Positions 29,250 through 36,939 of a DNA stretch of 45,262 bases are shown in pieces. The stretch's first letter is position 1, and every line of letters starts with the position of its first letter. The notes beneath the pieces were generated by a model, which saw only the letters and a list, made by a program, of their open reading frames with translations, did no database searches and was not told where the DNA came from. Both the position numbers and the translations under genes were made by a program. Source of the stretch: an uncultured Bacteroides sp. (GTDB taxonomy: Bacteria; Bacteroidota; Bacteroidia; Bacteroidales; Bacteroidaceae); the NCBI GenBank assembly GCA_945607605.1, contig CALYZE010000015.1:1-45262 (forward strand), read 5' to 3'.

Positions 29250-29348
29250 TATGTTGTGAAACACATAAATATCTTCTAAAACAGCCTCTGTTTTAAAAAA
29301 AGATAAAAAAAAGTTGGCCTTTCGAGAACAACGTATTTAAAAAGTACA

Positions 29349-29356
29349 TACCTTTG
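29349..29356 (+). promoter_or_regulatory. -7 promoter element of the alanine-rich lipoprotein gene
   Basis: TACCTTTG is an exact TAnnTTTG match, 51 bases upstream of the ATG at 29408, giving a leader of about 45 bases. Confidence 0.6.
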
Positions 29357-29407
29357 CAATGTTTTAATAAAGCAATTGATTGTATTACGTTTTAAAAAGT
29401 AAAGAAA

Positions 29408-29617
29408 ATGAAAAAATTAGTTTTGATGGCCGTAGCTATCGTAGCAGTATCTTTCGCATCTTGTGGTAACAAAGCAGTTAACGCTGAACAAGCAGCAGCT
29501 GATTCAATCCGTATCGCTGATTCAATCGCAGCTGTAGAAGCAGCAGCAGCAGAAGCAGCAGCAGAAGCAGCAGCTGATACTGTAGTAGCAGATAGCACAG
29601 TGGTTGTAGCTGAATAA
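29408..29617 (+). CDS. Small alanine-rich lipoprotein
   Basis: This 69-residue protein has a lipoprotein signal peptide ending in the lipobox FASC with Cys19. The mature part is about 50 residues made almost only of Ala, Glu, Asp, Val, Ser and Thr, with a repeating EAAAEAAAEAAAD-like stretch likely to form a single acidic helix. The matching DNA is an imperfect GCA/GAA triplet array (about 29530-29575). It is a real gene by its promoter, lipobox and following terminator. Size and composition recall small surface-anchored helical lipoproteins, but no function can be assigned. Confidence 0.8.
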   Translation: MKKLVLMAVAIVAVSFASCGNKAVNAEQAAADSIRIADSIAAVEAAAAEAAAEAAADTVVADSTVVVAE

Positions 29618-29767: not shown

Positions 29768-30217
29768 TTAAGCTTCTTCAGCAACTACTTCAAAAGGAAT
29801 TTCTACAGAAACTTCTTTGTGTAGTTTAACAATAGCTTTGTAGCTACCAACTTCTTTTACTGCCTCTTTTACAACGATGACCTTACGATCTACATTGTGG
29901 CCTAATTTAGCCAACTCTTCAGCAATTTGAATATTAGTAACAGAACCAAAGATAGTACCAGTAGAGCTAACTTTCGTAGCAATCGTCAAAGATACACCTT
30001 CTAATTTAGCAGCTTGCTCTTCAGCATCTTTTTTGATTTTCTCCAACTTATGAGCACGTTGCTTCAGTTCTTCAGCCAACATCTTCTTTGCAGACGGAGA
30101 AGCAATAATAGCTTTTCCAGTCGGGATGAGGTAGTTACGACCGTAGCCAGACTTAACAGTTACGATGTCGTTCTTATAACCCAAGTTAATTACGTCTTCT
30201 TTTAATATAATTTCCAT
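29768..30217 (-). CDS. rplI: 50S ribosomal protein bL9
   Basis: This 149-residue protein has the N-terminal rRNA-binding domain [20 protein letters not shown] with [13 protein letters not shown], a long connecting helix rich in Lys/Glu and a C-terminal domain ([15 protein letters not shown]). It is the last gene of the operon rpsF-rpsR-rplI. Unlike most genes in the window it has a clear Shine-Dalgarno: the minus strand reads AGGAGGAGGAAAGT just before the ATG. Confidence 0.97.
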
Positions 30218-30232
30218 ACTTTCCTCCTCCTA

Positions 30233-30505
30233 TTATTTCATCATGTCAGTTACATAAGGCAGCAACGCCAAGTGACGTGCTCTCTTCACAGCTTGAGCTA
30301 CACGACGTTGGAACTTCAAAGAAGTACCGGTAATACGACGCGGAAGGATCTTACCTTGCTCATTCAAGAATTTCTTCAAGAATTCGGGATCTTTGTAATC
30401 GATGTACTTAATACCACTCTTTTTGAAACGGCAGTATTTCTTCTTTTTAACATCTACTGAGGGCGGAGTTAAATATCTGATTTCTGATTGAACTTGTTGA
30501 GCCAT
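30233..30505 (-). CDS. rpsR: 30S ribosomal protein bS18
   Basis: This 90-residue protein shows the bS18 core: [38 protein letters not shown] and [18 protein letters not shown]. It binds the 30S platform with bS6. Only two bases separate it from the rpsF stop codon. A strong Shine-Dalgarno (AAAGGAGG at 30520-30513, 7 bases before the ATG) is embedded in the last codons of rpsF, which is unusual for Bacteroidota. Confidence 0.97.
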
Positions 30506-30507
30506 GA

Positions 30508-30852
30508 TTAATCCTCCTTTTTAGTTGATTTAACATTTCTTCTCTTCGTAGCATATTCAGCAGCGTACTTGTCTTGTTTGAAAGTCAAGAAACGGATAAC
30601 GCGCTCGTCACGACGGAAGTTAATTTCCAGTTTTTCAATGACAGCAGGATCTGCATTGAACTCAATCAGCTGATAGAAACCGGTTGACTTCTTCTGGATT
30701 GGATAAGCCAGTTTTTTCAGTCCCCAGTTTTCTTCATTTACAATCTCAGCACCTTCAGCAGTAAGGATGCCTTTGAATTTTTCTACCGCTTCCTTCATCT
30801 GAACATCAGACAAAACGGGAGTTAAAATGAAAACGGTTTCGTATTGATTCAT
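30508..30852 (-). CDS. rpsF: 30S ribosomal protein bS6
   Basis: This 114-residue protein has the bS6 fold: [35 protein letters not shown] and [16 protein letters not shown]. It is the first gene of the rpsF-rpsR-rplI operon and has no Shine-Dalgarno itself. A consensus promoter lies upstream. In Bacteroidia bS6, bS18 and bS21 together form the pocket that hides the 16S rRNA 3' tail. Confidence 0.97.
30513..30520 (-). promoter_or_regulatory. Strong Shine-Dalgarno of rpsR inside the end of rpsF
   Basis: The minus strand reads AAAGGAGG with a 7-base spacer to the rpsR ATG. It is formed by the Lys-Lys-Glu-Asp codons that end rpsF. Most other starts in the window have no such site. Confidence 0.85.
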
Positions 30853-31930: not shown

Positions 31931-32632
31931 TTAAGACTCAGCCTCCGGAGTAATCAGTTTATATCCTTTTCCATGGATATTGATAATTTCGATAGAAGTA
32001 TCTTCTTTCAAATGTTTACGCAGCTTCGTGATATACACATCCATACTACGTGCATTGAAATAGTTGTCATCAATCCAAATCGTCTTCAAAGCAAAGTCAC
32101 GTTGCAGAATTTCATTGGCATGTGCACAAAGCAAACCAAGCAATTCAGATTCTTTAGTAGTCAATTTAGTCTGCTTTTCAGCTGTTGACAGAATCTGTTT
32201 TTGAGTGTCAAACGTAAACTTGCCAATTTTATAGATATTGCTTTCTTTATTCTTCTTGCCACGAACGCGTCTCAAGATAGCTTCAATTCTAAAAGTCAAT
32301 TCTTCCATACTAAACGGCTTGGTGATATAATCATCCGCACCAATTTTGAAACCTTCCAGAATATCCTCTTTCAGCGTTTTTGCCGTCAAGAAAATAATAG
32401 GGATTTCAGCGTTTGCAGCACGAACTTCCTGAGCCAATGTAAAGCCATCTTTTTTCGGCATCATGACATCGAATACACACAAGTCATATTTGTTCTTTAG
32501 AAAAGCTTTGTATCCTGCTTCTCCATCGGGATATAACTCGGCAGCGTAACCTTTAGCCTGTAAATATTCTCTTAAAAGCATGCCAAGATTTTCATCATCT
32601 TCGCATAATAAAATACGCAGTTTCTCGTCCAT
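31931..32632 (-). CDS. rprY: OmpR-family response regulator RprY
   Basis: This 233-residue protein has a receiver domain with acidic pocket Asp12/Asp13 (CEDDE), phospho-acceptor Asp55 (CVFDVMMPKKDG) and LTAKT plus ITKPFS. An OmpR/PhoB winged-helix domain follows (about 130-230: TTKESELLGLLC, RSMDVYITKLRKHL, IHGKGYKL). The start is the ATG at 32632, five bases after the rprX stop; an upstream TTG would overlap rprX. It is the partner of the kinase RprX and matches the Bacteroides RprXY pair. Its targets are not shown; direct repeats upstream of rprX are a candidate operator. Confidence 0.9.
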   Translation of the reverse strand: MDEKLRILLCEDDENLGMLLREYLQAKGYAAELYPDGEAGYKAFLKNKYDLCVFDVMMPKKDGFTLAQEVRAANAEIPIIFLTAKTLKEDILEGFKIGADDYITKPFSMEELTFRIEAILRRVRGKKNKESNIYKIGKFTFDTQKQILSTAEKQTKLTTKESELLGLLCAHANEILQRDFALKTIWIDDNYFNARSMDVYITKLRKHLKEDTSIEIINIHGKGYKLITPEAES

Positions 32633-32637
32633 ATCAA

Positions 32638-34179
32638 TCAATTTTTTAATAAAGGTAATGCAATAACAAATTTAGCTCCCACGTTAACCTCACTCTCTGC
32701 CCGGATAATTCCCTTATGATCCATAATAATTTTTCTCACATAAGCCAAACCCAAACCGAAGCCTTTAACATCGTGCAGATTACCTGTATGCACACGATAG
32801 AACTTTTCAAATATCTTCTTTAAATTTTCTTTCTTAATACCAATACCATTGTCTTGGATCGAAATCATCAGTTTTCCCGGTTCATTCCAAGTTTTCACAA
32901 TCAGCAGCAAATCCGCATCCGGACGTTTATACTTCACTGCATTATCCATCAGATTGAAAATAACATTGGTGATATGCATCTCATCAGCAAAGATCGTAGG
33001 ATCGCTGGCATTAAGTTCTGATTCAACCTTGCCATTATAGCGCTCCACCTTCAAAGCAAATGTATTGATAACACCTGCTATCAACTCATTAGCATCAAGT
33101 TCCTTCATCTTCAAAGTGGCCTTCTGACGATCAAACATCGACATCTGAAGCACTTTTTCAACTTGAAACCTCAAGCGTTTTGTTTCATCATTTATGACAC
33201 CTGATATATGCTGAAACATAGCCGGGGACTTGCCCACAGCCGGGTCTTTCAACATTTGCGCCGCCAACGAGATAGTTGATATAGGCGTTTTGAACTCGTG
33301 CGTCATATTGTTAATAAAGTCATTCTTCATCTCCGTCAGTTTCTTTTGGCGGAACACGATATAAATCGTGAAGATGAATGTTACTAACAAAACAAGAGTG
33401 AATATCATAGAAGGTATCATAAAGCTTACCGAGTCAAAAATGTAATCTCTTTTACCCGGAAAGTGTATCTTTACAATACTCATACGAGCCGGAGGGTCAT
33501 TCAGAAACAACGGCTGGGAATAAGAATATTCACTTCCCTCGTCACTATAATCTGAGCAGCGATAAACCTCCCTACCATCCTTATCTACCACTCTGAAATG
33601 GTACTTCAAATCAATGCCATTATCAACTAACCCTGCTTTCAGATATTGATCTAAATTTCTAAAATTAACACGTTCAGCTACAGGTTTGTCTTTGGCATTA
33701 TACACCATTTGCAAAACGACTTCATCTACCAATGCACGCTGATAAAGATAACGGTTTTTAAGCATCTCCATCTGCGAGCGTGAGGTTTGAGGTATCGTTT
33801 TGGTTCCGTGCTTGCGTGAAATCATTGCCCGTGGCAATTCAGAAGGCTTGTTACTAAAGCTTTTGAGTTCTATAGAAGAGTGAACGCTACCATCCGGAGC
33901 TGTCATCACAAACCGCTGAGTCTGTACTACTCCACTGGAATTTTGCGATTGTTCCCATGCCTTCTTTTCTGCATCAGAGATATCTTCATTCAACCAACGT
34001 TCAACTTCTTCGGACTCTACTCCTTTTGAGGCGGTCATCAATGCACGCTTCACGGATTCATCAAACTGCTCGTTACGCATCTTCACCATTTCCTCTATAT
34101 AGCTGATCTGTAAATACAGCAAGCTAAGGAAGGAGAGACCCATCACGACGCCTAATATCCATATTGTTGACTTCTTCAT
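32638..34179 (-). CDS. rprX: Sensor histidine kinase RprX
   Basis: This 513-residue kinase has transmembrane helices at about 5-25 and 253-276 enclosing a periplasmic sensor domain of about 225 residues. The HisKA phospho-acceptor is His294 in NNMTHEFKTPIS. The ATPase domain has N-box NVIFNLMDNAVKYK, DNGIGIKKEN and GFGLGLAYV. It phosphorylates RprY, whose gene begins five bases after its stop. The ATG at 34179 is preferred to a GTG two codons earlier. An exact -7 element at 34185-34192 almost touches the ATG, so a nearly leaderless mRNA or a different promoter must be assumed. Confidence 0.9.
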   Translation of the reverse strand: MKKSTIWILGVVMGLSFLSLLYLQISYIEEMVKMRNEQFDESVKRALMTASKGVESEEVERWLNEDISDAEKKAWEQSQNSSGVVQTQRFVMTAPDGSVHSSIELKSFSNKPSELPRAMISRKHGTKTIPQTSRSQMEMLKNRYLYQRALVDEVVLQMVYNAKDKPVAERVNFRNLDQYLKAGLVDNGIDLKYHFRVVDKDGREVYRCSDYSDEGSEYSYSQPLFLNDPPARMSIVKIHFPGKRDYIFDSVSFMIPSMIFTLVLLVTFIFTIYIVFRQKKLTEMKNDFINNMTHEFKTPISTISLAAQMLKDPAVGKSPAMFQHISGVINDETKRLRFQVEKVLQMSMFDRQKATLKMKELDANELIAGVINTFALKVERYNGKVESELNASDPTIFADEMHITNVIFNLMDNAVKYKRPDADLLLIVKTWNEPGKLMISIQDNGIGIKKENLKKIFEKFYRVHTGNLHDVKGFGLGLAYVRKIIMDHKGIIRAESEVNVGAKFVIALPLLKN

Positions 34180-34184
34180 AGTCA

Positions 34185-34192
34185 CAAAATTA
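34185..34192 (-). promoter_or_regulatory. Possible -7 element of rprXY (would give a near-leaderless mRNA)
   Basis: The minus strand reads TAATTTTG, matching TAnnTTTG, but it ends only 5 bases before the ATG at 34179. Either the transcript has almost no leader or the match is chance. Confidence 0.3.
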
Positions 34193-34453: not shown

Positions 34454-36610
34454 TTAATCTTCCGCTTGTTTTGCTTCAAATTCCTTAATCAATTTGTCTT
34501 GAACATCACTCGGAACCAGTTCATAACTTGCAAATTTCATAATAAAGGAGGCACGTCCGCCAGTCAACGAGCTCAATGCTGTTGAATAAGAAGACATTTC
34601 CTTTAGAGGAACCTTAGCGCTCAACTTTTCATATCCAGCCTCGCTGCTCATACCCATAATCATGGCACGACGCCCTTGCAAGTCTCCCATTACATCTCCC
34701 ATTTTATCAGAGGGCACAAAAACTTCTACATCATAAATAGGCTCCAGAATCTTTGGCCCGGCATTTCTAAACGCTTCGCTAAAAGCATTTCGTCCTGCCA
34801 ACATGAAGGAGATTTCATTGGAATCAACCGGATGCATCTTACCATCATATACAATCACCCGCACATCACGAGCATATGAACCGGTCAGCGGGCCTTGCTC
34901 CATACGAGCCATAAGCCCCTTTAAGATGGCTGGTAAAAAACGAGCATCAATAGATCCACCTACAATACTGTTGATAAATACCAATTTACCACCCCATTCC
35001 AAGGGAACTTCTTCTACCCCTTTTACATTCATCTTGAATTCCTGCCCACCAAACTTATACGTATCCGGCATCGGCATACCTTCATAATAAGGCTCTACAA
35101 TCAGGTGAACTTCACCAAACTGCCCAGCTCCACCCGATTGCTTCTTATGACGGAAATCGGCACGAGCAGCCTTCGTGATTGTTTCACGATAAGGGATTCT
35201 TGGTTCTTCAAACTTGACTTGCAGTTTCTCATTATTCTCAAGACGCCATTTCAATGTACGTAAATGGAATTCACCTTGTCCGTGCACAATAGTCTGACGT
35301 AATTCTTTAGATTGATCAATGACCCAAGTAGGATCTTCCTCACGCATACGATTCAAAGCAACCATCATCTTTTCAGTATCAGCTTCATTCAGCGGTTTGA
35401 TAGCACGTGAATACTTTGAATTCGGATATTTGATAAAATTGAAACGGTTTTCTGTACCTTTCCCATTCAACGTATTACTAGTATGTACATCTTTCAGCTT
35501 CACGGTACAACCAATATCGCCAGCCACCATTTCTTCTACTTTAATACGGTTAGCACCTGCACAAGCATAAATCTGTGCAATACGTTCCTTGGAGCCACGG
35601 TCAGCATTCGTAAAGTCTTCTCCTTCGTGCACCTTGCCACTCATTACCTTGAAATACTGAACATCACCGATATGCGGTTCCACAGCAGTCTTAAAGAAAT
35701 ACAAAGAGGCCGGTCCACTAGAATCCGGTTTCACCACTTCTCCACGTGTATTGTGTACCGGCGGCATTTCATCTACGAAAGGCACTACGTTGCCCAAGAA
35801 TTCCATCAAACGACCAACGCCCATATTCTTACCTGCACAAACACAGAACACCGGGAACATTCCACGGGAAGCCAATCCTTTGCGGATTCCTTCACGCATT
35901 TCGTCTTCGCTCAAAGAATCTTGGTCAAAGAATTTCTCCATCAAGCTTTCATCATGTTCAGCAGCAGCCTCCACCAATGCTTTGTGTAATGCGGTTGCTT
36001 TTTCCATCTCTTCAGCCGGCACATCTTCAATTGTGGGAGCACCGCCATCCGGTCCCCACGAATATTTCTTCATCAAAAGTACATCAATCAACGAATTAAA
36101 GTTCGGTCCGGTAGCCAACGGATATTGTACGGGCACTACCTTCGAACCATAGATGGACTGTAATTGATCCAACACCATATCATAATCACACTTATCACTA
36201 TCCAGTTGATTCACCAAAAAAATGACCGGCTTACCCAGTTTCTCTGTATAGCGAAAATGATTTTGCGTGCCTACCTCCGGACCGTATTGTCCGTTCAGTA
36301 ACAAAAGAGCAGTATCCGTTACATTCAGTGCAGTCATTGCAGCTCCTACGAAGTCATCACTACCCGGACAGTCAATAATATTCAGTTTCTTACCGTTCCA
36401 TTCCACATGGAAAACGGTGGAAAACACAGAATAGCCATATTCCTGTTCCACCGGGAAGTAATCGCTGACTGTATTCTTGGCAGTAATTCTGCCGCGACGT
36501 TTTATAATACCACTCTCAAAGAGCAGCGCTTCTGTGAGAGTGGTTTTACCCGAGCCGTCATTGCCAAGGAGGGCAATGTTCTTAATTTCATTCGTCTGAT
36601 ATACTTTCAT
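34454..36610 (-). CDS. fusA2: EF-G paralog (EF-G2) with altered GTPase site
   Basis: This 718-residue protein has the full EF-G domain order, with domains IV-V rich in matches (GRRAMIMGM near the end). The G domain departs from canonical EF-G: the P-loop is GNDGSGKT (16-23), switch I is EQEYGYSV (55-62) instead of EQERGITI, and G3 is DCPGSDD, with Ser84 where canonical EF-G has the catalytic His of DTPGH. G4 is NQLD (134-137). B. thetaiotaomicron EF-G2 is established as an EF-G paralog without GTPase activity that supports translation during carbon limitation and gut colonisation, under the regulator Cur. This gene matches that type. It has its own promoter and an upstream palindrome. Confidence 0.9.
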   Translation of the reverse strand: MKVYQTNEIKNIALLGNDGSGKTTLTEALLFESGIIKRRGRITAKNTVSDYFPVEQEYGYSVFSTVFHVEWNGKKLNIIDCPGSDDFVGAAMTALNVTDTALLLLNGQYGPEVGTQNHFRYTEKLGKPVIFLVNQLDSDKCDYDMVLDQLQSIYGSKVVPVQYPLATGPNFNSLIDVLLMKKYSWGPDGGAPTIEDVPAEEMEKATALHKALVEAAAEHDESLMEKFFDQDSLSEDEMREGIRKGLASRGMFPVFCVCAGKNMGVGRLMEFLGNVVPFVDEMPPVHNTRGEVVKPDSSGPASLYFFKTAVEPHIGDVQYFKVMSGKVHEGEDFTNADRGSKERIAQIYACAGANRIKVEEMVAGDIGCTVKLKDVHTSNTLNGKGTENRFNFIKYPNSKYSRAIKPLNEADTEKMMVALNRMREEDPTWVIDQSKELRQTIVHGQGEFHLRTLKWRLENNEKLQVKFEEPRIPYRETITKAARADFRHKKQSGGAGQFGEVHLIVEPYYEGMPMPDTYKFGGQEFKMNVKGVEEVPLEWGGKLVFINSIVGGSIDARFLPAILKGLMARMEQGPLTGSYARDVRVIVYDGKMHPVDSNEISFMLAGRNAFSEAFRNAGPKILEPIYDVEVFVPSDKMGDVMGDLQGRRAMIMGMSSEAGYEKLSAKVPLKEMSSYSTALSSLTGGRASFIMKFASYELVPSDVQDKLIKEFEAKQAED

Positions 36611-36716: not shown

Positions 36717-36743
36717 GTGTTACTAAACAATGTTATGTAACAC
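36717..36743. promoter_or_regulatory. Inverted repeat upstream of fusA2 (candidate activator site)
   Basis: GTGTTAC (36717-36723) and GTAACAC (36737-36743) are perfect inverted arms 13 bases apart. Inside the right half, TGTTA-TG-TAACA (36731-36742) is a second perfect inverted repeat. The centre is about 60 bases upstream of the predicted fusA2 start. Confidence 0.45.
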
Positions 36744-36939
36744 ATTACCCCATTCCAGAGTCAATCCATCCTGACGACTCATTCAAAAAGCAGATTTGTA
36801 TGCGATGGCTACAATGCTATGTTGACTCCTACAACTATCAATCCTAAAATGACAGAATACCATCACAAAAAAGCAATATTTGAGCTATAGTTTATCCTTT
36901 TTGACAGATTTGCATACCCTCACTTACCTTAATTTCTCC

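Follow-up and report, generated by a model that had tools for sequence, protein, structure and literature searches.

Our analysis argues that the window, i.e., the whole stretch of 45,262 nucleotides of uncultured Bacteroides DNA considered here, carries on its minus strand at 34454..36610 a gene, fusA2, for a Bacteroides-type elongation factor G2 (EF-G2). We propose, with a probability of roughly 0.88, that its product is a ribosome-binding translocase working without GTP hydrolysis, that its GTPase activity was lost through old changes in the G domain together with later changes in its lineage, and that it is made under carbon limitation via the regulator Cur. EF-G2, its family, and its lack of GTP hydrolysis have been described before in gut Bacteroides and are not new; the gene adds an ortholog to this family, and no new kind. 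EF-G2 is a natural case of reported hydrolysis-free ribosomal translocation and matters for gut colonization by Bacteroides. The order of changes over 232 paralog rows indicates that a missing switch II histidine does not mark out a GTPase-less factor, and the natural intermediates found among these rows represent material for a direct measurement of what caused the loss of GTPase activity.

A Bacteroides EF-G2 beside a canonical EF-G

The fusA2 gene begins with ATG and encodes an EFG II-type EF-G paralog of 718 amino acids. The list of open reading frames gives one long frame at 34454-36610, overlapped by shorter frames on the opposite strand, and the Pfam domains GTP_EFTU, EF-G_D2, EFG_III, EFG_IV, and EFG_C follow each other in this order along the protein. 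The NCBIfam model NF058620 (EFG2_Bacteroid) matched with 1345.7 bits over positions 1-717 of 717, above its cut-off of 1000, placing the protein within the EF-G2 family. The best match in the PDB was the 718-residue chain of 7uvp/8dmf, aligned from end to end (1-718) with 1420.5 bits and showing the same changes as our protein in its motifs GSSGSGKT, EQEYGYSV, and DCPGSDD; this chain is presumably the B. thetaiotaomicron protein. The initial annotation had seen a relative of B. thetaiotaomicron EF-G2, probably devoid of GTPase activity, and this proposal is now well supported by the family model, by the structural match, and by the reports on the ortholog. The nearest named relatives among the matches listed are Bacteroides species, at 96% at best.

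The 7uvp/8dmf chain, of EF-G2 type, bears the molecule name "Tetracycline resistance protein TetQ." A Tet(Q) identity was ruled out for the protein studied here: the Tet(Q) model, with its cut-off of 1425 bits, gave this protein a score of 131.2 bits, and nothing in the whole genome exceeded that cut-off.

Strong purifying selection acts on fusA2, with dN/dS values of 0.014 to 0.035 in 9 of 10 comparisons (at dS of 1.06 to 2.30, near saturation), the tenth comparison (L024) giving no ratio. A pseudogene was ruled out by the open frame and by these same values.

The genome (2.65 Mb in 116 contigs) matches EF-G domain III at four places, namely, a canonical EF-G (contig C30), fusA2, a 625-amino-acid frame on C28, and a 525-amino-acid frame on C20 that scored under the cut-off. 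The canonical EF-G (alignment rows L001 and L184) presents AHIDAGKT, EQERGITI, DTPGHVDF, and NKMD, ungapped, in the very alignment columns of the corresponding EF-G2 motifs. Hence, fusA2 is a second EF-G gene standing beside an intact canonical fusA in one and the same genome. More widely, the family cut-off was exceeded in 107 of 119 genomes of the order, taken from the named relatives to be Bacteroidales, with partial matches below the cut-off in 3 more, and in 1 of 14 control genomes. In the other 9 of the 119 genomes, all matches stayed at the level expected for canonical EF-G and none was of EF-G2 type, the gene having been either lost or missed in the assemblies.

Membership in the broader EFG II group can be read from the P-loop region, where Gly16 and Leu25 are signature positions (Margus et al. 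2011, PMC3150367). The protein has both; Gly16 was found in 232/232 and Leu25 in 211/232 paralog rows, compared with Ala16 and Thr25 in 11/11 canonical rows.

The switch II site and the G domain across relatives

Translation and alignment bore out the changes that the initial annotation had read in both switch regions. Switch I (residues 55-62; 36425..36448, minus strand) reads EQEYGYSV for the canonical EQERGITI, with Thr replaced by Ser at 61, Arg by Tyr at 58, and Gly59 kept. Switch II (residues 80-87; 36350..36373, minus strand) reads DCPGSDDF, so that Ser84, encoded by AGT, takes the place of the catalytic histidine; the histidine of canonical FusA falls in the same column, and none is found at position 84 of EF-G2. 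For the P-loop GNDGSGKT (residues 16-23; 36542..36565, minus strand), annotated at first as changed, the statement held in part: the Asp of AHIDAGKT has become Gly, and the sequence still fits the general GxxxxGKT pattern with its GKT. Moreover, at residue 134, NQLD is found versus NKMD in EF-G. The positions of these motifs were computed from residue numbers.

The alignment comprised 246 proteins, after partial rows L187_1 and L004_0 had been dropped from the set, and gave 232 paralog rows and 11 canonical rows once the window gene's own copies (L129_0 and L002_0) were set aside. The 11 canonical rows correspond to 10 genes, the genome's own FusA being present as two rows, L001_0 and L184_0, of which the latter is cut at its C terminus, and the 232 paralog rows are not 232 independent genes, as the collections may overlap in species (e.g., L059 and L118, with equal scores).

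A histidine at site 84 was present in 0/232 paralog rows, including the 41 rows free of the domain IV insertion described below, versus 11/11 canonical rows. Four paralogs from Clostridia and Fusobacteriota, outside the 232, have Tyr at this site. The P-loop Asp is gone in 228/232 paralog rows, remaining in three insert-free rows and in one row with an insertion of middle length. The residues holding phosphate and magnesium are largely kept, with GKT and the switch II Asp in 232/232 rows and the switch I Thr-to-Ser change in 230/232.

The residue found in place of the histidine varies with the class of insertion. The 41 insert-free rows have Leu (26), Tyr (12), or Phe (3). Tyr, Phe, Leu, or Ile occupies the site in 45/48 rows with a mid-length insertion, and Ser, Ala, Gly, or Pro in 121/143 rows with a long one, a class in which the site ranges over Ser, Ala, Leu, Met, Phe, Gly, and Pro. 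Small residues thus amount to 121/143, 3/48, and 0/41 in the long, mid, and insert-free classes, respectively, and to 24 against 13 large residues for the long-insert class in the thinned set used for the tree. A small residue at site 84 is common only with the long insertion; the long-insert rows are essentially one clade with dense sampling of close relatives, so that this association counts as one event. Ser84 as a required catalytic replacement was ruled out by the range of residues tolerated in the long-insert class.

At the codon level, 80 named relatives among the matches listed gave 60 AGY and 17 TCN serine codons, one alanine codon (GCG), and two cases unmatched by the search string, which are Ser (L050) and Ala (L083) in the protein alignment. 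Ser84 is not a sequencing accident, since 77 of these 80 relatives have a serine codon, and the use of two codon families for Ser in close relatives suggests that a small residue is preferred at this site.

These data bear directly on the proposal, made in the initial annotation, that the replacement of His by Ser explains the missing GTPase activity at residue level. Ser84 does occupy the site at which translational GTPases carry His (PMC4532990), and the E. coli EF-G mutant H91A is impaired, completely or significantly so according to other groups cited in the introduction of PMC4532990. The same report nevertheless gives for H91A a ribosome-stimulated rate falling from 202 to 28 per second, i.e., sevenfold slower and still about one seventh of the original rate, and for H91Q a rate comparable to wild type, with similar affinity for mant-GTP, Ser not being among the mutants in these results. 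Moreover, Thermus thermophilus EF-G-2, with Tyr at the site, is reported to be an active GTPase (PMC3150367, PMC9067457). The lack of His is therefore neither special to a GTPase-less factor nor enough to make one, because it is shared by all 232 paralog rows, because the Thermus factor is active, and because H91A retains part of its activity. Nor does it mark out the Bacteroides factor, given that all 232 rows, 41 of them insert-free, are without it. We thus consider it unlikely that Ser84 alone causes the loss of GTPase activity; we would rather count the residue changes as one contribution among several. A literature search combining EFG II with the missing catalytic histidine returned no paper, which is no proof that nobody noted its absence.

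The conserved part of the G domain could also be read the other way, with a slow hydrolysis relying on a different residue and the reported inactivity of the ortholog being a matter of assay conditions. The presence of GKT and the switch II Asp throughout the family and the activity of T. thermophilus EF-G-2 without His (PMC9067457) would fit with such a residual activity. It stands against the reports describing the ortholog as a translocase without GTP hydrolysis (PMC12775393, PMC10294740), and the spread of Ser, Ala, Leu, Met, Phe, Gly, and Pro at site 84 in the long-insert class gives no sign of a new catalytic residue there, so that we regard a slow hydrolysis as very improbable.

Our preferred reading remains that of a factor without GTP hydrolysis. 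The G domain of EF-G2 keeps the residues that hold phosphate and Mg, i.e., GKT, the switch II Asp, and Ser for Thr in switch I, and nucleotide binding is predicted from these kept residues only. The machinery for ribosome-triggered hydrolysis would be gone, through the change of His to Ser84, of the P-loop Asp to Gly, and of switch I.

The domain IV insertion and the order of changes

EF-G2 carries in domain IV an insertion delimited by MAFFT to residues 508-536 (35003..35089 on the minus strand, computed from residue numbers), a block of 29 residues more than in the insert-free paralogs. The compared region of domain IV counts 36 residues in EF-G2, 10 in the genome's own canonical EF-G (26 fewer), and 7 in the insert-free paralogs; in a phmmer comparison with T. 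thermophilus EF-G, 24 residues of EF-G2 (512-535) stayed unaligned. The tip of domain IV is conserved in the paralog rows, with His593 and Gly496 in 232/232 and Gln497 in 231/232. Han et al., in 2023, reportedly traced both the absent GTPase activity and the way in which the factor leaves the ribosome to a 26-residue region that EF-G2 has and EF-G lacks. The domain IV insertion fits this description, and we infer that the two are the same.

The order in which these changes arose was read from a tree of 98 rows, built without the columns of the P-loop, switches, and insertion. It took 76 of the 232 paralog rows, at a mutual identity of <68%, with L184_0 and the Variovorax row L248 left out. Fourteen canonical rows split from the 84 others with an SH-aLRT support of 100, and the state of the His site changes a single time, at that split. 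In this tree, which holds no EFG II of T. thermophilus or of actinobacteria, EF-G2 groups with the four paralogs from Clostridia and Fusobacteriota, opposite the canonical rows. The insertion appears at a clade of 66 rows (support of 100) and lengthens in a clade of 36 rows (94), three being the fewest changes of insertion class. The loss of His came first and the domain IV insertion later, in two steps. His is taken as the older state because of the rooting with canonical EF-G and of the statement that translational GTPases carry this residue (PMC4532990).

This order weighs on the possibility that the insertion is the main cause of the loss, by an altered docking on the ribosome that never triggers hydrolysis, with the G-domain changes as secondary drift. 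The size of the insertion agrees with that of the region to which Han et al. 2023 reportedly assigned the absent GTPase activity, and the frequency of small residues at site 84, high in the long-insert rows, low in the mid-insert rows, and nil in the insert-free rows, goes along with it. However, the G-domain changes are earlier on the tree and common to insert-free relatives, the association of the long insertion with small residues amounts to one event in essentially one clade, and the Mycobacterium smegmatis EFG2, compared by description only, is reported to be GTPase-less (PMC3150367, PMC9067457). We hold this possibility to be a serious one, short of probable. Most likely, old G-domain changes common to the paralogs and later changes in the lineage, namely, the insertion together with a small residue at site 84, added up to the loss of GTPase activity, and we can only infer the share of each.

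A tentative extension of this reading, to which we give clearly less than even odds, would be the ordered decay of a motor GTPase. His and, mostly, the P-loop Asp would have been lost at the root of EFG II, at a stage when hydrolysis was still possible, as reported for Thermus; the domain IV insertion would have followed in two steps; then, mainly with its long form, site 84 would have passed from Tyr, Phe, or Leu to Ser or Ala, thus completing a nucleotide-binding translocase whose release is independent of hydrolysis. Several observations speak against so neat a series: the insert-free rows have mostly Leu at site 84, row L228, with Phe at this site, acquired its long insertion independently, and the P-loop Asp did not vanish cleanly at an early stage, being still there in the three insert-free rows and the one mid-insert row. 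If such a decay did occur, the living intermediates with no, mid-length, and long insertions would let each step be assayed.

Regulation, neighborhood, and known systems

In B. thetaiotaomicron, fusA2 (BT2167) is reported to be directly activated by Cur (BT4338) on carbon limitation and to be required for gut colonization, and the published Cur site reads CCTTATGTTACATAACATTGTT (PMC6989115). A candidate Cur site, TGTGTTACATAACATT (36729..36744, minus strand), lies 118 bp upstream of the fusA2 start codon and has a common core with the published site. It has 11 of the 14 consensus letters, as many as 7% of the mononucleotide shuffles (109 of 1520) attained, and the whole window contains 12 matches at the 11/14 level against a shuffle mean of 4.68. 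A score of at least 11/14 within 300 bp upstream was found in 60 of 76 named relatives among the matches listed (16 of 76 scoring below), the 76 being the 80 named loci minus 4 with <250 upstream bases; in 56 of these 60 relatives, the site lies at 102 to 128 bp upstream. By its score alone the candidate site is weak, and its position and the shared core carry the argument.

Three more Cur-like matches, with 2, 3, and 3 mismatches, stand within ~150 bp at 29250-29401, directly preceding a small Ala-rich, lipoprotein-like open reading frame (29408-29617).

Downstream of fusA2 and on the same strand lies a two-component pair (31931-34185), comprising a sensor histidine kinase (32638..34185, minus strand; Pfam HisKA/HATPase_c) and a response regulator (31931..32641, minus strand; Pfam Response_reg/Trans_reg_C). 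Each of the two genes recurs in the flanking DNA of 50 of the 51 named loci of at least 13 kb among the matches listed, 29 named loci of <13 kb being left out of this count. Near fusA2, at 29768-30852, are also the gene for ribosomal protein L9 (by Pfam) and two small open reading frames resembling S18 and S6 by eye; L9 occurs in the flanks of 41 of these 51 loci among the matches listed.

We propose that carbon limitation would act through the CRP-like regulator Cur, leading to the production of EF-G2 and, beside canonical EF-G, to a slow and GTP-sparing translation. Once bound to the ribosome, EF-G2 would use its domain IV to move tRNA and mRNA. Translocation without hydrolysis and induction by starvation are expected from the reports on the ortholog, and for release from the ribosome without hydrolysis, Han et al. 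2023 reportedly point to such an insertion. An EF-G paralog catalyzing translocation without GTP hydrolysis is mentioned in PMC12775393, citing Han et al. (EMBO J 2023), and GTP-independent translation enabled by EF-G2 in PMC10294740, whose reference 40 we take to be Han et al. 2023.

Compared with B. thetaiotaomicron EF-G2, the protein belongs to the same curated family, has the length and motifs of the 7uvp/8dmf chain, and is preceded by a candidate Cur site of the same kind, with differences of the ordinary ortholog level, e.g., GND in the P-loop here versus GSS in that chain. The canonical FusA of the same genome has, like it, His593 and Gly496 at the tip of domain IV, found in 11/11 canonical rows, but, unlike EF-G2, has kept AHIDAGKT, EQERGITI, DTPGHVDF, and NKMD and is without the domain IV insertion. 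M. smegmatis EFG2, for which the comparison is by description only, is reported to bind guanine nucleotides without ribosome-dependent GTPase activity (PMC3150367) and to have no part in elongation or recycling (PMC9067457). T. thermophilus EF-G-2 (1wdt/2dy1) reads GHAGSGKT and DAPGYGDF; with Gly at the position of the P-loop Asp and Tyr at that of the switch II His, it shares with EF-G2 the lack of both residues as well as Gly16 and Leu25; in contrast to B. thetaiotaomicron EF-G2, it is reported to hydrolyze GTP (PMC3150367), and to do so in a ribosome-dependent manner (PMC9067457).
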